From Candidatus Hodarchaeaceae archaeon (GTDB lineage Archaea; Hadarchaeota; Hadarchaeia; Hadarchaeales; Hadarchaeaceae), in the NCBI GenBank assembly GCA_030016755.1, contig JASEJC010000004.1:1-41030 (forward strand): a DNA stretch of 41,030 nt, given 5' to 3'. Both the position numbers and the translations under genes were made by a program. The notes beneath the pieces are model-generated. The model was not told where the DNA came from. It searched no databases and was given only the letters and a program-made list of their open reading frames with translations. Within the stretch, counting starts at the first letter, position 1, and each line of letters opens with the position of its first letter. This document shows, one piece after another, positions 17,646 through 27,009 of the stretch.

Positions 17646-18395
17646 ATGGCTCGCAAGTATGTGCTGGGCAAGATGGGATACTACACTCGAGTGAAACCCG
17701 GCGAAGTAGCGCGCTACGTGCTTCTCCCAGGCGACCCGGCACGGGCCGAGCGCATCGCAAAAAGATTCGAAAAATCCAAGCCCATCGCTTTCAACCGCCA
17801 GTTCTGTACCTACACCGGCAAGGTCGGGGGCGTGCCAATCAGCGTGACCTCAACCGGGATAGGCTGCCCTTCAGCCGCGATAGCCGTGGAGGAGTTGGCA
17901 GCGTGCGGGGCGGACACCTTCATTCGGGTGGGGACGGCTGGAGGGGTGGGCCCCGGGGTGAAGGTCGGCGAGGTCGTCATCGCGAACGCTGCGGTCCGCG
18001 AGGAGGGCACCTCGGAGCAGTACGTTCCCCTCAGCTACCCAGCGGTGGCGGACTTGGAGGTGACGAACGCCCTCATCCAGGCAGCCAAGCGCCTCAAGGT
18101 CAGGTATCGCGTGGGCCCAACCATCTCGAAGGACGCGTTCTACTCGGAGGAGCCCGGGCGGGTGCCGATGGGGAGGGTGGCCGCTGAGAGGTGGAAGATC
18201 TGGAAGCGCGCTCGCGTGCTGGCGACCGAGATGGAGTGCTCGACCATTTACACCCTGTGCGGGATCAACGGTTGGCGCGGGGGCGCGGTCCTCGCCATCA
18301 TAGGTCCGATTGGAAAGATAGTCGACCCTCGTGCCGGGGTCGATGAAGCGATTGACACGGCAATCGAGGCAGTCAAAATTTTGGCGAAGGGCTAG
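17646..18395 (+). CDS. udp: Uridine phosphorylase-type nucleoside phosphorylase
   Basis: Phosphorolysis of a nucleoside to base plus ribose 1-phosphate in salvage. 249 residues of the PNP/UDP family: YVLLPGDPARAERIAKRF (phosphate-binding), ISVTSTGIGCPSAAIAVEEL, FIRVGTAGGVGP, and ATEMECSTIYTL with the Met-Glu that binds the ribose. The FNRQFCTYTGKVGG segment favours uridine phosphorylase over purine enzymes, but the exact base is not certain. ATG with GGGATGAT upstream and a TATA-like CTTTTAAATTC near 17606-17616. Confidence 0.9.
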   Translation: MARKYVLGKMGYYTRVKPGEVARYVLLPGDPARAERIAKRFEKSKPIAFNRQFCTYTGKVGGVPISVTSTGIGCPSAAIAVEELAACGADTFIRVGTAGGVGPGVKVGEVVIANAAVREEGTSEQYVPLSYPAVADLEVTNALIQAAKRLKVRYRVGPTISKDAFYSEEPGRVPMGRVAAERWKIWKRARVLATEMECSTIYTLCGINGWRGGAVLAIIGPIGKIVDPRAGVDEAIDTAIEAVKILAKG

Positions 18396-18740
18396 GGCGT
18401 TGTTTGAACAGCGCTAATTATCCCAACCGACACTATTTAGAAAACTTGGGGTATTCGTCATGGGTGATGTCAAATTTTTACATAAGCGTGGCAGAAAATG
18501 CAGAGAATAGAGCACAGTCATAATATGAAGAAACATTAAGATTAGCGGTGGCATACGGTAAAATGTCGGATTACAGATCCACCGGGGCCCTTTTTTAACA
18601 TATCGGCGATCGTGACCTCGTGTGCAGCTCTCCTCAGACGAAAGGAGATCTTGTATGTGGGTTGTCGATTTTCGCAGTTGGGGTATTTTATCTCATGCTC
18701 TGGCTGATCTAGACACATGGGGCGCCTCGGTTCAGCGACA
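18396..18740. other. Gene-free stretch, 345 bp
   Basis: No convincing open frame, tRNA or box-type RNA seen. The only structure is CCGGGGCCCTTTTTT (about 18582-18596), a GC patch followed by six T, which could end a plus-strand transcript from the uridine phosphorylase gene 190 bases upstream. The convergent neighbour at 18741 ends here too. Confidence 0.4.
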
Positions 18741-19421
18741 TCAGAACCGCGAACCGTTCACCCTTAGGTGCACGCCGAGGTACTCGATGACCAGCAGCCC
18801 GAGGTAGACCGGCAACAGAATCTCCACCACAGGCATCATCAGCTCGATGTCTGAGAAAGAGCTCGCTCCCCACATCCCCACGAGAAGAAAACCCACGCCG
18901 AGCGCTGCATTCGAGAGCTTCACCCCCCGTCGGTCGAGCAGGCCACGGACGAAGAGCTGGGGGGCCACGACTGCAACGAGGAGCGGGGGTGCGAAAGCTA
19001 TTGCCGTCATGAGCTGGCGGGGAACTCCCGTCACGAGCGACACCGCGAGGGAGACCCAAGCATATGTGATGGAGAGCGGGACCATCCAGCTCCCGAGGAC
19101 GACTGGGCGCGGGCGGCTAGTCTTGCGCTCGCCCCAGAGGAGCGCCCAGCCCGCTATCCAGATCCCGAGGACGATGAAGAGGATGTACATCGCGATGTTT
19201 GTGGGGATGGGCCCGAACGCCGAGTAAACGTAGGGGACCAAGCGCCCCCCAGCACCCAGCCTCATGGTCATGTAGCTCGGGTAGAAGAACAGGCTCAGGG
19301 TGAAAAGCGCGATGAAGGAAACGATGAACAGCCGGAAGGCCCACCGGATGTGCACCCTGCGGCGGCCGGCGAGGTTCCACTCTTTTCGGATCGAGCGTTT
19401 ATCTGAGGATCGCACCCTCAT
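18741..19421 (-). CDS. Multi-pass membrane protein, unknown
   Basis: 226 residues. After a basic cytoplasmic N-terminus (RVRSSDKRSIRKEWNLAGRRR) there are about six hydrophobic segments: FRLFIVSFIALFTLSLFFYP, IPTNIAMYILFIVLGIWIAG, MVPLSITYAWVSLAVSLVTG, LMTAIAFAPPLLVAVVAPQL, LSNAALGVGFLLVGMWGASS and MPVVEILLPVYLGLLVIEYL. I recognise no family and see no catalytic motif. ATG with GAGGTGGGG nine bases upstream. It stands alone, divergent from the nitroreductase region. Confidence 0.7.
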   Translation of the reverse strand: MRVRSSDKRSIRKEWNLAGRRRVHIRWAFRLFIVSFIALFTLSLFFYPSYMTMRLGAGGRLVPYVYSAFGPIPTNIAMYILFIVLGIWIAGWALLWGERKTSRPRPVVLGSWMVPLSITYAWVSLAVSLVTGVPRQLMTAIAFAPPLLVAVVAPQLFVRGLLDRRGVKLSNAALGVGFLLVGMWGASSFSDIELMMPVVEILLPVYLGLLVIEYLGVHLRVNGSRF

Positions 19422-19782
19422 CGGCCGACCCCACCTCTTTCGAATATCTCACCAGGTAGCCTCGCGCGACATTGGGACCGCTCGACCCCTCCTTGACCTC
19501 TGAGCTCCGCATGCGATCAACTTCGAAAGTTGTAGGCGGTGACTGAAAATAAAACCTGCGGGTGTTTTTGCCCCCTTATAAAGGACCTCCACCCAAAGCC
19601 TGGGCGGGTAGATAAAAAAGTGACAAAAATAAATCAACGAACCGTCGGTGGCACTGTTGTAGGCAAAACAAAGAGATGGAAGGCGGAAGAACGAAAAAGC
19701 GAAAAAATTAAGAAAAAAATAGTAATCAAATCACGTAGCCTTTAATATCCGGAGCTCGAATCGGTAGAGTGAGGTGACCGGG
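19422..19782. other. Gene-free stretch with AT-rich half
   Basis: About 360 bp between divergent genes. The half near 19600-19740 is A-rich on the plus strand. CCCTTATAAAGG (19571-19582) contains a TATA-like core. A 68-codon frame (19539-19745) is very Lys-rich, has no family resemblance and a poor start; I do not call it. No RNA gene recognised. Confidence 0.4.
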
Positions 19783-20292
19783 GTGGAGGTCCTCGAGGCG
19801 ATTCGAACGAGGCGCAGCGTTAGGAAATACGAGAAGCGCTCCGTCCCCGAGGAGTTCGTTCGAAAGATCTTGGAGGCCGGCCGGTGGGCACCCTCGGCGA
19901 GCAACGCCCAGCCCTGGAGCTTCATCGTGCTCAGGGACGAAGGGGTCCGAAAGGAGGTGGCGCGGGCAGCCACCTACGGGCGCTTCCTCGCCGAAGCCCC
20001 GCTGGGGATCGCGGTCGTGGTGGACCCAGCAGCATCCACGCACCCGGTTGAGGACGGGGCGATCGCGACCCAGAACATGCTGCTCGCGGCCCACGCCCTA
20101 GGGCTGGGGACGTGCTGGATCGGGTCGTACGGGTCGAGCTACGAGGAGCGGGTGAAGGAGGTGCTGGGGATCCCCGAGGACAAGCGGCTGCTCTCAATTA
20201 TATCAGTGGGCTACCCGGCAGAGTCCAGTAAATCCACGCGCAGGGATCTCGGGGAGCTCGTGTTCAGGGATCGCTACGGGAAAAGCGGTTGA
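19783..20292 (+). CDS. Nitroreductase-family FMN oxidoreductase
   Basis: About 169 residues. Opens VEVLEAIRTRRSVRKYEKRSVPEEFVRKILEAGRWAPSASNAQPW, the FMN-binding start of the nitroreductase fold, with the later ATQNMLLAAHALGLGTCWIG and LLSIISVGYPAE also typical. Substrate cannot be told: the family includes NAD(P)H-dependent nitro, flavin and dehalogenating enzymes. I choose GTG 19783, five bases after GGTGA; GTG 19774 is possible. Single gene. Confidence 0.88.
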   Translation: MEVLEAIRTRRSVRKYEKRSVPEEFVRKILEAGRWAPSASNAQPWSFIVLRDEGVRKEVARAATYGRFLAEAPLGIAVVVDPAASTHPVEDGAIATQNMLLAAHALGLGTCWIGSYGSSYEERVKEVLGIPEDKRLLSIISVGYPAESSKSTRRDLGELVFRDRYGKSG

Positions 20293-20341
20293 GGCGGGTG
20301 GATGGCCGGCCAAGTTGATCGTCGCAGGCTAACATGTTTTC

Positions 20342-20357
20342 TGTAACTACTGCTACC
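20342..20357. promoter_or_regulatory. Candidate operator, copy 1 (TGTAAC-type, imperfect)
   Basis: TGTAACTACTGCTACC. The first of three 16-bp TGTAAC-led sites around the HEPN/nucleotidyltransferase pair. The right half is degenerate compared with copies 2 and 3. It sits about ten bases upstream of the TATA-like GCTTTTATCC (20363-20372), 39 bp before copy 2. Confidence 0.45.
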
Positions 20358-20380
20358 GAAAAGCTTTTATCCTTCTGGTT

Positions 20381-20396
20381 TGTAACTATAATTACA
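20381..20396. promoter_or_regulatory. Candidate operator, copy 2 (TGTAA palindrome)
   Basis: TGTAACTATAATTACA: five-base arms TGTAA/TTACA. It lies 11 bases before the ATG of the HEPN gene and just downstream of the TATA-like element, where a bound protein would block transcription start. Autoregulation by the encoded pair is the usual arrangement of toxin-antitoxin operons; that use here is inference. Confidence 0.5.
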
Positions 20397-20407
20397 GAAG
20401 GGATTGG

Positions 20408-20746
20408 ATGAAACCAGACGACCACCTAACAAAGGCGCAGAGAATAGAGGGGTCCGTTAAAAAACTCGATCTAGCCCGTGACTGGGAAGTAATCATCGAG
20501 GGCGTTTACGGCGCCGTGCTACATTACATCGCATACATCGCGGAAACCAAGCTGGGCAAGCATCATGAAACTCACAAGGGATTGCCCAAGTTTCTGGACG
20601 AAAGCAACCTATCCGGGCTCGCTGAGGCATTCCGAGAACTTGAGTCACTCCGACAAAGCCGCTGGTATGGTGGCAAGGAGGACGGGGAAATTTCAAGGAG
20701 GGTCCTCTCCATCCTCGAGCGGATCAAACAGGAGGGAGGGTTATGA
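20408..20746 (+). CDS. HEPN-like partner of nucleotidyltransferase (toxin-antitoxin-like)
   Basis: Small helical protein of 112 residues (DWEVIIEGVYGAVLHYIAYIAETKLG, then KHHETHKGLPKFLDES and ELESLRQSRWYGGKEDGE). The size, helical content and the 4-base overlap with a minimal nucleotidyltransferase gene match HEPN-MNT pairs. I do not see the clear RX4-6H RNase motif of canonical HEPN toxins, so RNase activity is uncertain. ATG at 20408 follows a TATA-like element and two TGTAAC-type sites. Domain assignment rests mainly on context. Confidence 0.65.
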   Translation: MKPDDHLTKAQRIEGSVKKLDLARDWEVIIEGVYGAVLHYIAYIAETKLGKHHETHKGLPKFLDESNLSGLAEAFRELESLRQSRWYGGKEDGEISRRVLSILERIKQEGGL

Positions 20747-21360
20747 TTTCGCGGCTTCCAGCGGAGGACCGCAAGCTCATCGCGAGATTTTTGGACCGGG
20801 TGAAAGGCTGGGCCCCACCCACGCTTTCGGGCGTGGTGCTGTTCGGCTCGCTCGTTCGCGGGGATTTCGGGCCCCGATCCGACATCGACGTGCTCATGGT
20901 CTTCGACGAGCCAGACCCAAGGCGGCACCTGACCGAGGTCACCAAGATCATCACCGCGCTCAAGCCTCACCGCGAGATACGGCCAGTGCTCACGAACCTC
21001 AAGGACGTGGGTGCGGACCTGCTCCAAGAGGTCATGCGGGAGGGGGCGGTGCTCCACGGCAAGCTCGTGGTGGGCCCCGACTCCCTCGCGTTGAGGCCAT
21101 ACTCCATCATCTCCTACGACCTGAGCGCGGCCGACTCCACAACCCGCCAGCGCGTGGCCCGAAGGGTGTACGGGTACAGCTCGCGGAAGCGCGTGGGGAA
21201 GCGCCTCAGGGAATACAGCTACCCGGGCTTGGCCGATCGGAAGGATTGCTTCGTTTTGGGTAAAGGGGTCATCGCCCTCCCAGCCGAAACTGCGAAGGGT
21301 TTTGTCGAGTTCCTGAAGAGAAATCGCGTGAAGGCCGTTCGGCGCGAGGCGTTTATGTAA
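20743..21360 (+). CDS. MNT-type nucleotidyltransferase with C-terminal extension
   Basis: 205 residues. The N-terminal half is a pol-beta nucleotidyltransferase: VVLFGSLVRGDFGPRSDIDVLMVF holds the GS loop and the two catalytic Asp (SDIDV). The C-terminal half (from about 118: YSIISYDLSAADSTTRQRVARRVYG... KGVIALPAETAKGFVEFLKR) is a separate domain ending in a basic segment that I do not recognise. In HepT/MntA pairs the MNT protein AMPylates and silences the HEPN partner; a like role is inferred. ATG overlaps the HEPN gene end by 4 bases. Its TAA stop lies inside the third TGTAAC palindrome. Confidence 0.85.
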   Translation: MISRLPAEDRKLIARFLDRVKGWAPPTLSGVVLFGSLVRGDFGPRSDIDVLMVFDEPDPRRHLTEVTKIITALKPHREIRPVLTNLKDVGADLLQEVMREGAVLHGKLVVGPDSLALRPYSIISYDLSAADSTTRQRVARRVYGYSSRKRVGKRLREYSYPGLADRKDCFVLGKGVIALPAETAKGFVEFLKRNRVKAVRREAFM

Positions 21361-21371
21361 CTGCGGTTACA
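21356..21371. promoter_or_regulatory. TGTAAC palindrome, copy 3, over the stop codon
   Basis: TGTAACTGCGGTTACA: perfect six-base arms TGTAAC/GTTACA around TGCG. It contains the TAA stop (21358-21360) of the nucleotidyltransferase gene. It closely matches copies 1 and 2 at the other end of the two-gene unit, so the sites bracket the module. Confidence 0.5.
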
Positions 21372-21530
21372 ACCAAGGCTTGCCCCGCCGCGATTAAAGT
21401 TTACCCGGTGCGGGTCGGCCGCGTGGGTCGTGACGCCGGAGCTCCCGGGGGCCGAGTGATTACAAATCGTGAATTCAAATCACACCGACATATCATTTAA
21501 ACATTTGGCACTTTATTAGGAACGATGTAA

Positions 21531-22460
21531 ATGCCATATATTTTTGTCGTGGATAAAACAAATTTGAGGAAGTGTCTAGAAAGCTATTTGTTTGGTGTTC
21601 CTGATACCGCGAGAGCCTATAGTCAAATCCTTTCTATCAAAAAGGGTGAGATGCTTTTTCTTTATGAATACGGCCCTAGGAGAGTCCACGGAATTTATAA
21701 AGCGAAGAGTGAGCCATTTACCGAGCGGGATCCATCAAGAGGTCCTTGGAAGGGCAGGAAAAGAGATTTAGACGCAAAATACTATCCCCACCGCATTGAA
21801 ATTGAGATTAAGCAGTATTATCCCACTGGGGTGGATATCACAAAAATAGAAAAGAGCGAACTGGGTATAGACAGACGCTCCTTCAACGGAAAAAGTTGTA
21901 TGTACATTAGCGATAGGCAAGCTGAAAAAATTATGGAATTGCTGAAAAGTGTGAATATAGGAGAACCATCCCAATTTTGCGCTGGGGCCCGCTGGGATTC
22001 TGATAAACGAACGGTAACCTTGGCAGAACTCAAGGGAGGAAAGGAAGAGAAGCTACAAGTTTTGGTTCAGCAAAATATTGAAAAATTGAGAAAACTTGGT
22101 TTGGAGATAGAAGTGCTTGACAGCTACTTCAACATAACAGAATGCATGAGTTGCAAAGCTATGGGAATACTAGACTACGCAGGGCAAATCGATATTTTGG
22201 GGAAAGATATCTCAGGAAATTTTATCGTTACGGAATTAAAAGCGGAGGCCGCACAAAAAGCTATTGTTAAACAACTAGAAAATTATGCTTTGGTGGCGAG
22301 AAAGACAATCGCCAAACAAGAAAATGTGGGCGTTTCACCTGCGATTATTTGCAAGTCTGCTTCCAACAGACTCATCCGGTATCTCCAACAAAAGAAAATA
22401 GCCACATTTGAGCATTGCACTGATTTTGAATCCTATATCGAATTCGAGCGGTTAACATAG
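21531..22460 (+). CDS. DCD-domain / NucS-like nuclease fusion
   Basis: 309 residues in an AT-rich patch. Residues 1-95 look like a DCD (development and cell death) domain, a PUA/EVE-like fold: YIFVVDKTNLRKCLESYLFGVP, ILSIKKGEMLFLYEYGPRRVHGIYKAKS. Residues 165-300 match the catalytic domain of NucS/EndoMS (DUF91): Asp221 in GQIDIL, Glu235 and Lys237 in VTELKA, Gln248 and Tyr252 in KQLENY, the D-x13-E-x-K-x10-Q-x3-Y spacing of that PD-(D/E)XK family. The N-terminal DNA-binding domain of true NucS is replaced. EVE-type readers fused to nucleases often restrict modified DNA, so a modification-dependent defence role is a fair inference. ATG at 21531 behind CATTTAAACATTT. Confidence 0.8.
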   Translation: MPYIFVVDKTNLRKCLESYLFGVPDTARAYSQILSIKKGEMLFLYEYGPRRVHGIYKAKSEPFTERDPSRGPWKGRKRDLDAKYYPHRIEIEIKQYYPTGVDITKIEKSELGIDRRSFNGKSCMYISDRQAEKIMELLKSVNIGEPSQFCAGARWDSDKRTVTLAELKGGKEEKLQVLVQQNIEKLRKLGLEIEVLDSYFNITECMSCKAMGILDYAGQIDILGKDISGNFIVTELKAEAAQKAIVKQLENYALVARKTIAKQENVGVSPAIICKSASNRLIRYLQQKKIATFEHCTDFESYIEFERLT

Positions 22461-22538
22461 TTGCGTGTGCGGGTTGAACGGATCGAATCAGAAACCTTTA
22501 AATTCCTCGTTTTTGATCAGATCAGATCGCGTGCTTAA

Positions 22539-22886
22539 ATGGAACTAACCTGTCCAGAATGCTGTTGTGTTGCCATGCGAAAGGTAAAAGAAAATCGATG
22601 GGAATGCGAGTTCTGCGGAACTTCATTCGATTTCAAACGATTAAGGGATGCGTTAGACATGCTCGTGGGACGCCAATTTCAAGAGGATTTCATCGATGAG
22701 CTTTTGAGCGATGCTAAGCCCGAGGCATTTCCCAAACTCGGCGAACGTACTTGGAAATGGACTGGAAAACACGGCATCTTATACACTCTCGATGCTGGAA
22801 ATGGTTGGCATGATGTGATGAAAGGTCAAAGGACGTCTTATTTTTTAATGAATAAGCTCCTGCCCATAAGGATGGGTCAGAAATAA
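22539..22886 (+). CDS. Zinc-ribbon protein, unknown
   Basis: 115 residues. Cys5/Cys8 and Cys23/Cys26 form a zinc ribbon (CPEC ... CEFCG), followed by a helical stretch (FKRLRDALDMLVGRQFQEDFIDELL) and WKWTGKHGILYTLDAGNGWHDV. No family recognised. Same AT-rich composition as the preceding nuclease gene, from which it is separated by 78 bp with a TATA-like CCTTTAAATTCC about 40 bases before the ATG. Its last 14 codons run antisense into the decayed adenine deaminase, so the native C-terminus may have been altered at that junction. Confidence 0.65.
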   Translation: MELTCPECCCVAMRKVKENRWECEFCGTSFDFKRLRDALDMLVGRQFQEDFIDELLSDAKPEAFPKLGERTWKWTGKHGILYTLDAGNGWHDVMKGQRTSYFLMNKLLPIRMGQK

Positions 22887-23310
22887 ATCCACGAACTTGA
22901 AATCCCTCGAGTCGAAAAGCCCGCGGTCGGAAAGTCTCAGCTCGGGGATGACGAGTAAGGTGAGGAAGCTGAGCTGCACGAAGGGATTCGGAAGCTTGCA
23001 CCCGGCCCTTCGTACCGACCGATGCAGCCGCTCCAATCCCTTGGCCAGCTCCCCAGTTCACTCGCCCGACATCAGGCCTACAATCGAGAGGGCAACGCAA
23101 CGGGTCCTCCCCTCGAAAAAACGAGCCCTCCGCGGCACATGACCGCTCTGGCCGCCTCGCACATGTCCTGGGTGTTGTTTCCGGCCACCACCAAATTATG
23201 GCTATCGTGCGCCACGCTGCTCGCGATTGCCCCCCGGACCCAAAGCCCCTGCACGAAAGCCCTTGAAACGGGGCCCGCCGGTATCGGTTGACCACCGCCA
23301 GCGCCCCTCG
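22845..23310 (-). pseudogene. ade: Adenine deaminase remnant (C-terminal part)
   Basis: The minus strand, read across frames, spells the end of adenine deaminase: ALAVVNRYRR, then FVQGLWVRGAIASSVAHDSHN, LVVAGNNTQDM, then after a frameshift CVALSIVGLMSGE, an in-frame TGA, TGELAKGLERLHRS, NPFVQLSFLTLLVIPELRLS and DRGLFDSRDFKFVDLF. SSVAHDSHN and LSFL..LVIPEL.L are strong Ade signatures. The metal-binding N-terminal two thirds are missing, and at least two frame changes and a stop break the rest. In life the enzyme converts adenine to hypoxanthine in salvage. Confidence 0.85.
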
Positions 23311-23421
23311 TCCCTTAAAAGAAAATCACGCTTCGACTTTTTTTGGCGAGCCGTGCTAGGTGGATTCGCCTTCGGATGCCAAAACATCCCTGCCGGAGTT
23401 CTCGCCCGATGCAAAAACCTG

Positions 23422-24006
23422 CTACATCTTTCTCTCCGGGCAGAACTCCCGGGGCGGCGGAGTCTTCCTGAGCTTCGCTCCCGGGACCTCTTCTCCCCTG
23501 CGCAGCAGGCCGAGAAGGTCGCCCTCCTCCGGGTCCTTGACCTTTCGGTCGAGGTATGCCCAGTCGATCCTGCCCGCGTTGATCTCCAGTAGGGCCCTCA
23601 GGTCGTCTACATCCTTCCACCGGCGGAACCGCAGCTTCGTCCTGATCAGGTCTTCGAGCGAGACGAAGGCCACTGTTTTTCCGTGGTACTCGACTCCCCT
23701 GGCCCGCTCGAACACCTCCGGGTCGTCCTCCCGGATCAGATCCACGCCGAAGCACTCGGGCGTCTTCAGCGTCGCTATCCCGATCTTGTGGAAGTCCTCA
23801 CCCCGGGAGATGAACCCCTTCGTCAGGAACTGTCTGACGGCCTCCTCCCACCCCTTATCGTCAAGGAAAACCACGATGTCCACATCGGAAGTCACCCGAA
23901 TGTGGCCGTACACGGCGCCGGCGATCATCCCGCTCACGGCGTATTCGACCCCGAGCTCCTCGAGTATCCCGATCGCCTTGAAGGTGGTGCTCTCCGCGAT
24001 GCCCAT
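23422..24006 (-). CDS. Nucleotidyltransferase-fold protein (toxin-antitoxin-like)
   Basis: 194 residues. VSGMIAGAVYGHIRVTSDVDIVVFLDD near residue 24 is a nucleotidyltransferase active-site region of the kind seen in AbiEii/DUF6036-type proteins: a glycine-rich helix followed by T-S-D-V-D. VSLEDLIRTKLRFRRWKDVDDLRALLE in the middle is also usual for these families. It begins one base after the stop of the upstream winged-helix gene, so the two form a regulator-NTase pair. Whether it acts as toxin or antitoxin cannot be told. Confidence 0.8.
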   Translation of the reverse strand: MGIAESTTFKAIGILEELGVEYAVSGMIAGAVYGHIRVTSDVDIVVFLDDKGWEEAVRQFLTKGFISRGEDFHKIGIATLKTPECFGVDLIREDDPEVFERARGVEYHGKTVAFVSLEDLIRTKLRFRRWKDVDDLRALLEINAGRIDWAYLDRKVKDPEEGDLLGLLRRGEEVPGAKLRKTPPPREFCPERKM

Positions 24007-24330
24007 TCACACCGCCCTCTGCTGGCGGGCCGCATCCCTGATGCCGTAGATGAAGTCGAACGTGTCGAACACGAGCTCCAGCCTGTCTGACATCTCAGGC
24101 GTCCCGCGCGGGCGACCAGGCCTCAGCCGCCATAGCACGGACGCACCCCTCCTGGCCCTCTCCAGGGTCCCGGCCTTCGAGAACTTGCTCTGTAGGTTGA
24201 GGAACTTCTGGGCGGCCTTCCAGTCCACCCCGGCCCGCCTGGCGACCTCGCGCGTGCTGAGCGGTCCCTCGGCCTTGAGCAGGACCTTCGCAAGCCTGTC
24301 CACCACATCCTCGAGACTGCGTTTCGGCAT
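24007..24330 (-). CDS. Winged-helix DNA-binding protein (antitoxin-like)
   Basis: 108 residues from ATG 24330. RLAKVLLKAEGPLSTREVARRAGVDWKAAQKFLNLQSKF is a clear winged-helix/HTH motif, followed by a basic wing (LERARRGASVLWRLRPGRPRG) and a C-terminal helix. TTATATA (about 24362-24368) lies some 35 bases upstream, giving a short-leader transcript that supports this start over a TTG at 24396. Directly upstream of, and abutting, the nucleotidyltransferase gene; likely autoregulator of the pair. Confidence 0.72.
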   Translation of the reverse strand: MPKRSLEDVVDRLAKVLLKAEGPLSTREVARRAGVDWKAAQKFLNLQSKFSKAGTLERARRGASVLWRLRPGRPRGTPEMSDRLELVFDTFDFIYGIRDAARQQRAV

Positions 24331-24431
24331 TCCTGGCACCGATAGAACCTTGTAATTATGGGTATATAACCTTAATTCAAAAACGACTAAAACCAAGCCC
24401 CAATGTTGCCGATATTTGCGAAGTTTGTAGA

Positions 24432-24779
24432 TTAGGAAGTCCCTGGCTCGGCGAGTATGCCTTCGACCTGCACCCTTAGATGCGGGACATCCTCCGTCAC
24501 GATTTTCCAGGCCTCCTCCAGTTTCAGGCGGAAGTATTCGTGAATTAACGCGTCCCTCAAATCCGCAAAGTCATTCCACCTTACATCCGGATACTTTTCT
24601 TTGATGCCCTTGGAGACGTGTTTGATCGCCTCCCCGATTATCTCCAGCTGTCTCATCACTGCGCTCTGTGTCTTCCGGTCGGCGAGGAAATCCTTCAGCT
24701 CCATGTCCCGCACGTATTCCCCTATCTCCACCGTCGCGTCCAAGACGTGTTGCAGGCGGGATTTGTCGCTCCTCATCAT
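24432..24779 (-). CDS. hepT: HepT-like HEPN toxin (DUF86)
   Basis: 115 residues. The HEPN RNase motif RX4HXY is seen as Arg75, His80 and Tyr82 in LRDALIHEYF. DYLQ-type opening helix (SRLQHVLDATVEIGEYV) and QSAVMRQLEIIGEAIKHVS match DUF86. In characterised pairs HepT is a ribonuclease or tRNase toxin silenced by AMPylation of its tyrosine by MntA. Its ATG overlaps the mntA stop by 4 bases. Confidence 0.9.
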   Translation of the reverse strand: MMRSDKSRLQHVLDATVEIGEYVRDMELKDFLADRKTQSAVMRQLEIIGEAIKHVSKGIKEKYPDVRWNDFADLRDALIHEYFRLKLEEAWKIVTEDVPHLRVQVEGILAEPGTS

Positions 24780-25168
24780 AGAATCGCCTTCATCTCCCGC
24801 CTGGCCTCCCTCTCGATGTGGGGATCAAGCTTGGTTCCCAGCTCCACCTTCATGCCGAGCACCTCGGACAGCTCTCTCTGGATGCGGAAAAGCTCAAGTC
24901 CCACTGGCTTAGGGAACTCGACCAAGATGTCGACATCGCTCCCGGGCCTCGCCTCCCCTCTCGCGTACGAGCCGAAGAGCCACGCCTTTTTAACCCCCCG
25001 TTCCCTGAGGGCCGAGGCCAGCTTCTTGATGTCGAGACCTGTGGGGAACGGCGCGATGAAGACCCTTCCACACCCCTTGCACAATAGCCGTTGCTTGCGA
25101 CTTTTTCCGGCGTAGTGTATGCCCGCCCTCACGACCTCCCTCGAGCTGCAGAACCTACAAATCGGCAC
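24776..25168 (-). CDS. mntA: MntA-like antitoxin with N-terminal zinc ribbon
   Basis: 130 residues. Residues 40-130 are a minimal nucleotidyltransferase with GSX10DXD (Gly66-Ser67, Asp78, Asp80 in FGSYARGEARPGSDVDIL). Residues 1-38 are an added zinc ribbon (Cys4/Cys7, Cys30/Cys33; CRFCSSREVVRAG, QRLLCKGCGRVF) that closely resembles the zinc ribbon of the IS6-like transposase at 1-424. MntA AMPylates HepT; the ribbon may give the pair its own DNA-binding part for autoregulation (inference). GTG start at 25168; an in-frame stop lies just upstream. Confidence 0.88.
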   Translation of the reverse strand: MPICRFCSSREVVRAGIHYAGKSRKQRLLCKGCGRVFIAPFPTGLDIKKLASALRERGVKKAWLFGSYARGEARPGSDVDILVEFPKPVGLELFRIQRELSEVLGMKVELGTKLDPHIEREARREMKAIL

Positions 25169-25306
25169 GTTCCATCATATAAGTAAGTAAACAAACTCCT
25201 TAGGCTGCCGTCCCCAGGCTCCGCCTTGCCGCAATCGTAGCAGCGGAGCTGGCCCCCCGGAAACACCAGCCCACAAGCTAAAAACGTGCTTCCCTCGCTT
25301 CATCTC

Positions 25307-25528
25307 TCACAACTCCTCGTCCAAGAACTCCTCGGCCCCGTGCGCCTCCTCGCAATCCGAGCATATACCAAGCGCCCTCATGGAGGGGTCCTTGCCGGCG
25401 CACCCCCTGCAGTACGGCCTCCCGCACTCGCTGCACCTGACTAATTCACCCTCAGGGAACTCGCGCCCGCAGACCGAGCACCTAGACATGCTCTCACTAC
25501 CACTTCTTTCGCTCGAAGCTTTCCCCAC
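25307..25528 (-). CDS. Small double zinc-finger protein
   Basis: 73 residues with four CXXC pairs (CSVC, CSEC, CRGC, CSDC) spaced like a cross-brace or B-box/FYVE-like treble clef (CSVCGREFPEGELVRCSECGR, then PYCRGC and GICSDC) and an acidic tail. GTG at 25528 has GAGGAT upstream; an internal ATG at 25489, just before CSVC, is an alternative. Function unknown. Divergent from the nuclease gene that follows. Confidence 0.6.
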   Translation of the reverse strand: MGKASSERSGSESMSRCSVCGREFPEGELVRCSECGRPYCRGCAGKDPSMRALGICSDCEEAHGAEEFLDEEL

Positions 25529-25583
25529 TTCAATCCTCTAAACTTAAAGATACAGCCCATTAACATTCTAGCGAGGAACCCCA

Positions 25584-26225
25584 ATGGCCGGACCCATCGA
25601 GATCGGTGTGACGAGCCTCCAATTGGCCCTCGACTGCCCCCTCTGCTTCTGGCTAGCCGAGCGGGTGGGCCCGCCCCCGTCCATCTTCGCAGGGATCACC
25701 GCCCAGATGGACTCCGTGATCAAGGGCTACATGAAGCAATTCGTCGGGAGCTCTGATTTGCCTGAGTGGTTCCCCGCCCGCGGCACGCTCTTGGACACAA
25801 AACAAACGCTGAGGGCCACTGACCCTGCCACGGGCATCACCGTCGTTGGTAAGCTCGATGCCCTGGTTAAGACCGAGGACGGCAGGTACTACGTGGTCGA
25901 CTACAAGACGGGCAGGCCCCCCGAGGAGATCCCGGACTACTACCAGACCCAGCTCGACGGGTACGCTTACCTGCTGGAGCGGAATGGGTTCAGGCCTGTG
26001 GCCGGAGGGGTGCTCCTGTACTTCACCCCTCAGCACGGAGACCTGAAGGATGGCCTGTTCCCGTTCAAAATCACCGCGGTGCAGGCGCAGGTCGCCTCCA
26101 GCCGCGTCCTGTCGGTCCTCGCGCGCGCAAAGGAAATCCTCGAGATGAAGACCCCGCCTCCACGCGCCGAGGACTGCGAGCTCTGCATCTGGCGGGAGCA
26201 GGTCGAGGGTGCACTGTCCGAATAG
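25584..26225 (+). CDS. RecB/Cas4-like PD-(D/E)XK nuclease
   Basis: 213 residues. Motifs: GKLDALV (Asp92), YYVVDYKTGRP (Asp106, Lys108) and YYQTQLDGYAYLL (QxxxY), the order of the RecB/Cas4 nuclease core. Cys18 and Cys21 near the start and Cys198 and Cys201 near the end could bind an iron-sulfur cluster, as in Cas4/AddB proteins, though the canonical pattern is one plus three. No CRISPR array or cas gene is visible, so it is a stand-alone copy. ATG with GAGGA upstream. Confidence 0.85.
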   Translation: MAGPIEIGVTSLQLALDCPLCFWLAERVGPPPSIFAGITAQMDSVIKGYMKQFVGSSDLPEWFPARGTLLDTKQTLRATDPATGITVVGKLDALVKTEDGRYYVVDYKTGRPPEEIPDYYQTQLDGYAYLLERNGFRPVAGGVLLYFTPQHGDLKDGLFPFKITAVQAQVASSRVLSVLARAKEILEMKTPPPRAEDCELCIWREQVEGALSE

Positions 26226-26266
26226 ATTTCAATGAGGTCATGGAATTATCATTAAATGGTGGTCGG

Positions 26267-26551
26267 ATGGCAGCATCGGTAAAGCTGAGCAAACGGGCAA
26301 AGAGGATACTTGACAACCTACAGACAGAGGCCACGCAGAAAACCGGGAGAAGGGTCTCAAAGCAGGAGCTAATCGAGCTGGTTCTTGATGAGATAAAACG
26401 ACGGAAGGAGGAATTGATCTCAAAAATCTCCGAGCGCGCCCGCACACCACTAAGTGAAGAGGAAATTAAAAAAATTCTCAGTCTATCAAGCGATTGGGGC
26501 GTTGTCACCTCAGAGGATGAAATAGACAAGTATCTATATGGCAAGGAGTGA
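26267..26551 (+). CDS. Ribbon-helix-helix-like small protein
   Basis: About 94 residues. ASVKLSKRAKRILDNLQTEATQKTGRRVSKQELIELVLDEI resembles an RHH DNA-binding unit (strand, then two helices), followed by a charged helical tail ending SEDEIDKYLYGKE. The start is ATG 26267 behind GGTGG; ATG 26240 would add nine residues. Such proteins are commonly VapB-type antitoxins, but no PIN toxin follows; the next gene is a JAMM protease. Solitary antitoxin or transcription factor. Confidence 0.65.
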   Translation: MAASVKLSKRAKRILDNLQTEATQKTGRRVSKQELIELVLDEIKRRKEELISKISERARTPLSEEEIKKILSLSSDWGVVTSEDEIDKYLYGKE

Positions 26552-26592
26552 ACGTTGGCATTTATCGTGGAAAGAGATTGGAGAAGGTCCTC

Positions 26593-27009
26593 ATGAAACT
26601 CAAGCTCAGACCTTCAGACCTCAAGACGCTCGAGGCCCACGCGCTGGAGGCCTTCCCCCACGAGTGCTGCGGCCTGCTACTGGGGCACTTCCGGGGCGAC
26701 GAGATTGAGGCGGTGGAGGTGGTCAAGGCGGAGAACGTGAAAAGGTCACCTGTAACATTTGAGGCTGCTCCTGAGTTCGTTTATCACCAGTACAGGCGGG
26801 CGGAGGAGCGCGGGCTCGAGCTGGTCGGGATTTACCACTCCCACCCAAACATCGCAGCATTTGTTAGCAGTCACGATTTCAAGATAATGGAGCTCTGGCC
26901 GGGGGTAGCTTGGTTGATTTTAAGCGTGGCAAAAGATCGCGTGCTCGAGCGGAAAGCCTACGCGCTGAAAAACGGCAAGATAGAGGAACTCAAGCTCTTG
27001 TCTAGCTGA
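26593..27009 (+). CDS. JAMM/MPN metalloprotease (Mec+/RPN11-like)
   Basis: Zinc isopeptidase-type hydrolase, about 138 residues. Catalytic Glu in FPHECCGLLLG, then YHSHPNIAAFVSSHDF, an exact HXHX7SXXD metal-binding motif. In bacteria Mec+ removes cysteine from the sulfur carrier CysO; in archaea JAMM1 removes ubiquitin-like SAMPs. I favour ATG 26593, where KLKLRPSDLKTLEAHA begins the fold; a GTG at 26548 overlaps the previous stop and would add 15 residues. It converges on the SepCysS gene with an 8-base overlap, next to a MoaD-E1 fusion. Confidence 0.9.
   Translation: MKLKLRPSDLKTLEAHALEAFPHECCGLLLGHFRGDEIEAVEVVKAENVKRSPVTFEAAPEFVYHQYRRAEERGLELVGIYHSHPNIAAFVSSHDFKIMELWPGVAWLILSVAKDRVLERKAYALKNGKIEELKLLSS

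Follow-up and report, generated by a model that had tools for sequence, protein, structure and literature searches.

A DCD–NucS fusion protein in an archaeal genomic island: a predicted modification-dependent nuclease whose partner gene and leader are shared with DpnI loci

INTRODUCTION

Among the nucleases that depend on a modified base, DpnI, which requires Gm6ATC, is a PD-(D/E)XK enzyme. Prokaryotic DCD domains are rare, mainly archaeal and fused to PD(D/E)XK nucleases, and according to the text of Bell, Wolf and Koonin (2020, PMC7641849) they probably read modified DNA; the same text predicts DCD- and EVE-PD(D/E)XK fusions to be type IV restriction enzymes and offers precedent for EVE and YTH readers in restriction enzymes. 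A fusion of a DCD domain to a PD(D/E)XK nuclease is, as such, already known. What we have not found described in the literature is a NucS-type nuclease in a DCD fusion, the small Zn-ribbon gene that accompanies it (zr) or the GATC-cluster leader in front of zr; nor did we find any description of NucS with ‘DCD domain’ or ‘EVE domain’. The text of PMC7641849, its figures and supplements aside (these may list the exact protein or the related EVE-like-NucS family), makes no mention of NucS/EndoMS.

Here we describe such a fusion, DCD-NucS, encoded in a 41,030-nucleotide stretch of DNA from a Candidatus Hodarchaeaceae archaeon (contig JASEJC010000004.1; ‘the window’). We favour the view that it is a single-chain modification-dependent (type IV-like) DNA restriction endonuclease, to which we give a probability of roughly 0.68.

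RESULTS

A DCD domain joined to a NucS-type nuclease domain

The initial annotation of the window had read the gene as a DCD domain fused to a NucS catalytic domain, and this holds: both domains of the open reading frame (Table 1) score above their Pfam cut-offs, DCD with 45 bits against 27.8 and NucS_C with 24.2 against 24, with a sub-threshold EVE match also present. That the frame arose by chance could be rejected on the strength of these matches and of the conserved active site. The solved structure closest to the protein is EndoMS (5gke, 6.5e-4), and hhalign matches the nuclease domain to the C-domain of NucS at 95%; the N-domain is matched to DCD at 94%, to the N-domain of archaeal EVE-like-NucS proteins (see below) at 92% and to archaeal EVE proteins at 85%. 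The N-terminal DNA-binding/dimerisation domain of NucS is not found in the protein (hhalign, 0.06%), the DCD domain lying there instead; the annotation's further idea that the one replaced the other is less secure, since DCD may have become joined to the nuclease independently of the NucS N-domain. We also set aside an ordinary NucS, and neither of the two outcomes that the annotation had named as refuting its reading came about: the N-domain is unlike that of NucS, and the NCBIfam NucS equivalog model matches the C-terminal part alone, at 36.5 bits, far under its cut-off of 216. By inspection, the C-terminus (CTDFESYIEFERLT) has no PIP-like tail of the kind common in archaeal NucS proteins.

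Table 1. Features of the DCD-NucS locus (positions in the window)
Feature	Position	Strand	Basis
Variable island with DCD-NucS gene, 8.15 kb	18396..26547	.	flanking genes adjoin in five relatives
Nucleotidyltransferase (MNT-like) gene, upstream of DCD-NucS	20743..21360	+	PF01909 3e-10
DCD-NucS_C fusion nuclease gene, 309 aa	21531..22460	+	ORF ATG to TAG; Pfam PF10539 + PF01939
DCD (EVE/PUA-like) reader domain, residues 3-94	21537..21812	+	PF10539 1.1e-11; hhalign
NucS_C-type PD-(D/E)XK nuclease domain, residues 217-272	22179..22346	+	PF01939 3.5e-5; EndoMS 5gke; hhalign
Predicted active site D221-x13-E235-x-K237-x10-Q248-x3-Y252	22191..22286	+	pattern + shuffles; 5gke alignment
Promoter-like zr leader: AGAAACC (BRE-like), TTTAAAT (TATA-like) 22497-22503, three GATC 22515-22528	22490..22528	+	conserved, six zr loci
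zr, Zn-ribbon partner protein, 115 aa	22539..22886	+	rare homologues at DpnI or EVE-like-NucS genes
HepT-like / MNT toxin-antitoxin pair (24432-24779, 24776-25168)	24432..25168	-	PF01934 8.1e-26, PF01909 1.7e-17

The active-site spacing picked out by the annotation is kept in full. The pattern appears in 0.03% of 20,000 shuffles of the protein and in 13 of the 15 archaeal NucS proteins retrieved; in alignment D221 falls on position 165 of 5gke, where the crystal has alanine, and the catalytic residues of S. islandicus EndoMS (D159, E173, K175) have a spacing equal to that seen here (PMC7736090). Pfam finds no match in DCD-NucS to the catalytic or winged-helix domains of DpnI (PF06044/PF17726), and a PADLOC scan of the protein gives weak matches to candidate systems only.

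The annotation had looked to structure prediction for the fold of the N-domain. Models made from the single sequence, without alignment, are of low confidence (pLDDT 33 for the whole protein, 43 for the N-domain), and a fold search started from the weak model of the N-domain ranks structures of the EVE, ASCH and YTH types highest at non-significant scores, with no E-value below 0.4: EVE first (1zce and 2gbs, both of which we take to be EVE proteins), then ASCH, then the N-domain of Thermococcus gammatolerans McrB. DCD-NucS is the single protein of this exact type that we found, with no close relatives in viral contigs, phages, plasmids or a pattern scan of genome contigs.

A Zn-ribbon partner gene otherwise found with DpnI

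Starting 78 bp 3′ of the DCD-NucS gene, zr encodes a protein with the Zn-ribbon motif TCPxCC...CxxCGTxFD and no family match. In a sample of 394 archaeal genomes, homologues occur in five others, all of the same order, together with one weak 27-aa match elsewhere; identity is 49–86% where most of the protein aligns, whilst at the sixth locus the alignment spans 54 aa with 48% identity. Whilst zr was picked as the neighbour of DCD-NucS, the remaining five loci were retrieved by zr homology alone, and at each of them the gene immediately 5′ encodes a nuclease known or predicted to depend on a modification. With the window included, the gene directly 5′ of zr is DpnI at four of the six loci (genomes G010, G003, G007 and G002) and a reader-NucS at two, the second being an EVE-like-NucS gene in a genome of another family (G022), where the zr that follows is 70% identical to that of the window. 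The DpnI of G010 aligns along its full length with the DpnI structure 4esj (2.1e-61); Pfam, run on G010 and G003, gives PF06044 at 2.4e-57 and 3.6e-58, respectively, and the DpnI of G007 and the broken copy of G002 were identified by sequence similarity to these two.

Other features were seen around the DpnI-zr pairs. A BglII-type endonuclease gene (PF09195, 5.3e-20) adjoins the pair in G010 (L150 2885-3412, G010:C18); the BglII site, AGATCT, includes GATC. Directly 3′ of the pair in G007 lies a CRISPR-like array of about 20 identical repeats with a 73-bp period (L151 3500-4943, G007:C4).

The leader of zr and its GATC cluster

All six zr loci have a leader just before the start of the gene: an A-rich BRE-like stretch, a TTTAAAT or CTTAAAT box and, 11 bp further along, clustered GATC sites set 5 bp apart, three of them at four loci and two at the other two. 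From the TATA-like box through the GATC cluster, identity between the window and the DpnI loci is 0.78–0.84; it is 0.55–0.70 in the 20 bp 5′ of the box and about 0.1–0.3 at 20–90 bp upstream, and farther 5′ the sequences of DCD/EVE loci and DpnI loci are unrelated. As identity is confined to the leader onward, we take leader plus zr to be the constant unit and the nuclease the variable part.

The same boundary could be read differently: likeness to the DpnI loci ends just 5′ of the zr leader and the zr of the window shares 86% identity with the one beside DpnI in G010, as might be the case if zr were left over from an older DpnI-zr cassette and DCD-NucS were an unrelated newcomer, the DpnI link then being uninformative on target. 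We consider this unlikely, zr also standing beside EVE-like-NucS in another family (G022), and zr and DCD-NucS both being AT-rich relative to the island. It does count against our main reading that the DCD-NucS/zr pairing is a single case, and the zr link could be accidental, through the hitch-hiking of a DpnI-zr cassette that had lost its DpnI.

We scanned 150 archaeal genomes for the pattern TTAAAT-N(9-16)-GATCNGATC, with the reversed pattern as control. The whole genome from which the window comes has one match, the zr leader itself. Across 28 genomes of the phylum the pattern occurs at nine places, eight of them at restriction or modification genes, compared with two places for the reversed control. 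Four are the window leader and the zr leaders with DpnI or EVE-like-NucS (G007, G010, G022); four lie at a different small gene beside EVE-like-NucS (G010, G023) and at a DNA amino-methyltransferase locus (two, G017); the ninth is inside an ABC transporter gene (G025). Matches beyond the phylum are mostly background-like. The exception is G148, where a GATC cluster separates an interrupted EVE-like-NucS gene from a DNA amino-methyltransferase of the same type as that of G017; a gene facing such a methyltransferase would be odd for a cutter of methyl-GATC, though this copy is split. Groups of three GATC sites in a span of 30 bp are enriched beside these nuclease genes, where 5 of the 10 groups fall within 4.7% of the sequence examined (binomial 5e-5, the five not being fully independent as two are homologous leaders), and none occurs in 20 control stretches (292 kb), which come mostly from GATC-poor genomes.

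At the G017 locus (L157 471-2044, G017:C43) two tandem GATC-cluster leaders lie 5′ of the DNA amino-methyltransferase gene (PF01555, 9.8e-25) and of an unknown 166-aa ORF; this is possibly an opposite, methylating version of the cassette.

A wider archaeal family of EVE-like-NucS proteins

A family profile that drew on three remotely related proteins of the same order, searched against 394 archaeal genomes, places EVE-like-NucS proteins in 16 of these other genomes, mostly of 316–326 aa with a few broken or truncated. NucS_C is matched by 11 of 12; the N-domains alone match no Pfam reader family. A profile made without the window protein still scores DCD-NucS at 26.5 bits, colinear across both domains, whereas none of 300 shuffles scores above 2.3. 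The family shares GxW, PPW and a AENLLLRGGYRKTHFQAD stretch. Its conserved GxW and LLLRGGYRKTHFQAD motifs are not present in DCD-NucS, which keeps the second tryptophan (W73) alone; with the conserved GxW tryptophan missing, the DCD-NucS reader may bind something other than the EVE-like-NucS readers do.

EVE-like-NucS genes are lower in GC than their neighbours at 23 of the 24 loci compared (mean gap 9 points) and patchily distributed, being present in 17 of 94 genomes of one Thermococcaceae-like family with some copies broken; low GC and patchiness together fit horizontal spread. The defence-island context that the annotation had anticipated for homologues was not found in the Thermococcaceae-like genomes: there the genes occupy fixed places among housekeeping genes, with neither GATC clusters nor zr, and this stands against a restriction role. 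In the same 94 genomes a strong match to m5C methyltransferase is seen in none of 17 carriers and 23 of 77 non-carriers, a contrast that we discarded as evidence of avoidance, all carriers belonging to one genus in which such genes are rare; N6/N4 methyltransferase matches are present in 94 of 94.

Individual loci show a variety of further arrangements. In G010 (L072 4218-7716, G010:C55) the neighbourhood of an EVE-like-NucS gene includes a C5-cytosine DNA methyltransferase (PF00145, 7.5e-54), an HhH-GPD glycosylase (PF00730) and an ORF of 111 aa preceded by a GATC-cluster leader of its own; G023 has a homologue of this ORF, with a similar leader, beside its EVE-like-NucS gene (L071). An EVE-like-NucS relative adjoins an Mrr-type gene in G302. 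At about ten loci a small ORF of about 78–97 aa with no Pfam match overlaps or abuts the EVE-like-NucS stop codon (L068 9007-9240, L064 9025-9315 and eight others), possibly another type of partner. The G148 gene is split by about 9.5 kb (L121 1188-1784 and G148:C176:11329-11532), the DNA amino-methyltransferase facing it across the GATC cluster, and copies broken by stops, frameshifts or fragmentation occur in G433, G444, G082 and G335 (L120, L119, L045 and L047, respectively). A different fusion, of 353 aa, joins an N-terminal part of unknown type to a strong NucS_C domain (2.4e-18; L025, G024:C39).

DCD-NucS lies in a variable island

The phosphorylase (17646-18395) and JAB/JAMM (26548-27009) genes, 8.15 kb apart here, abut in five relatives from the window's family. 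At 0.41, the GC of the DCD-NucS gene is the lowest of 45 called genes (window about 0.56), so that the AT-rich patch remarked on in the annotation is real and takes in zr (0.44) as well. The AT-rich gene pair, together with an 8.15-kb insertion between otherwise abutting genes, supports recent acquisition of the DCD-NucS gene at a variable site; it is probably foreign in origin. In genome G004 a gene between the phosphorylase and GTPase genes, beside the insertion point of the island (L092 12432-13625, G004:C4), is a putative TnpB/IS605-type transposase.

Besides DCD-NucS, the island carries a nitroreductase-like gene, genes of the nucleotidyltransferase and HepT-like kinds, and a Cas4-like nuclease; as local links to restriction or defence, only the toxin-antitoxin-like genes and this nuclease were seen. 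Toxin-antitoxin-like modules had been annotated around the gene, and MNT/HepT genes do flank it; they say little on mechanism. A small ORF without family match (20408-20746) overlaps the upstream MNT-like gene, as toxin-antitoxin pairs do. The annotated island genes include no methyltransferase, in keeping with a type IV enzyme, which has no cognate methyltransferase beside it; in 22887-23421 no gene is called.

This setting bears on whether DCD-NucS could be a mismatch- or lesion-directed repair nuclease standing in for NucS/EndoMS, in which case the DCD domain would recognise a base that is damaged or mismatched. The C-domain does fit NucS above every other nuclease family, and the host genome (87% complete) yielded no further NucS_C gene, but canonical NucS is also missing from most relatives in the host's family, the gene is accessory, AT-rich and placed within a variable island, both the NucS N-domain and the PIP-like tail are absent, and the partner gene is one common to DpnI; a repair role seems to us improbable. 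Nucleases of the NucS_C type are known to act on DNA (PMC7736090), and the linkage is to genes of DNA restriction and methylation. In favour of an RNA nuclease guided by modifications, or of an effector of abortive infection, there remain the binding of modified RNA by EVE/DCD/YTH domains in other contexts (text of PMC7641849) and the toxin-antitoxin neighbours, and we regard such a role as very improbable indeed.

DISCUSSION

Reading DCD-NucS as a modification-dependent restriction endonuclease draws on the domain pair with its intact active site, a remote family of the same domain order with an EVE/DCD-like reader, the zr/leader link to DpnI, the genome scan, the foreign-looking composition and the variable island; the fusion of a PUA-superfamily reader to a nuclease, a trait of type IV enzymes, is present. 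The annotation had likewise raised a modification-dependent nuclease, a prediction that zr and the GATC-rich leader, otherwise found with DpnI, support in part and indirectly; any modification named as the target is a candidate.

Mechanistically, we propose that the DCD domain would read a modified base in foreign DNA and that the NucS-type PD-(D/E)XK domain, with its recognisable active site, would cut nearby. The gene appears to travel as a cassette with zr, which has its own TATA-like/GATC-cluster leader; zr and leader would be kept as the upstream nuclease is swapped, an exchange suggested by the observed juxtaposition with DpnI in four relatives, EVE-like-NucS in one and DCD-NucS here. 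GATC methylation may also tune zr expression, the leader acting as a methylation-sensitive promoter and zr as a putative helper or regulator.

Because the constant part, zr and its leader, is common to DpnI, N6-methyladenine, perhaps in GATC, is the leading though unproven candidate target; that DCD-NucS is specifically a methyl-GATC restriction enzyme we put forward only tentatively. Equally speculative is the broadest version, in which DCD-NucS and EVE-like-NucS would be DpnI equivalents, unrelated 6mA-dependent nucleases housed in one exchangeable archaeal cassette, with zr switched by methylation of the GATC cluster and the same promoter controlling methyltransferase genes of opposite type.

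The ligand of prokaryotic DCD domains has been inferred from genomic context (text of PMC7641849), and the DCD-NucS locus offers a concrete test case: a single-chain enzyme with a wider archaeal family, and a partner and promoter pointing to methylated GATC. If this is correct, restriction has taken over from repair the nuclease domain of NucS, and one regulatory cassette accommodates, in exchange for one another, modification-dependent nucleases that are unrelated by origin. The locus may also be a source of heat-stable enzymes for the detection of modified DNA.

Compared with known systems, DCD-NucS resembles NucS/EndoMS in its C-terminal nuclease domain and exact active-site spacing, but carries DCD where NucS has its N-terminal binding/dimerisation domain and ends without the PIP-like tail. 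With DpnI it has in common, in related archaea, the downstream zr and its leader; in sequence it matches neither DpnI nor the DpnI winged-helix domain, and its reader is a different one. EVE-like-NucS proteins are alike in domain order, show remote similarity in both domains and in one member are followed by zr, yet are only about 23% identical and have GxW, the ‘AENLLLRGGYRKTHFQAD’ stretch and a longer D-to-E spacing. T. gammatolerans McrB (a YTH-type 6mA reader; N-domain 6p0f) and VcaM4I (EVE-HNH) likewise place a PUA-superfamily reader in a modification-dependent restriction enzyme, there joined to another nuclease or motor part. The fusions described in the text of Bell et al. (PMC7641849) share with DCD-NucS the combination of base-reader and PD-(D/E)XK nuclease, an archaeal host and a predicted role in the restriction of modified DNA.
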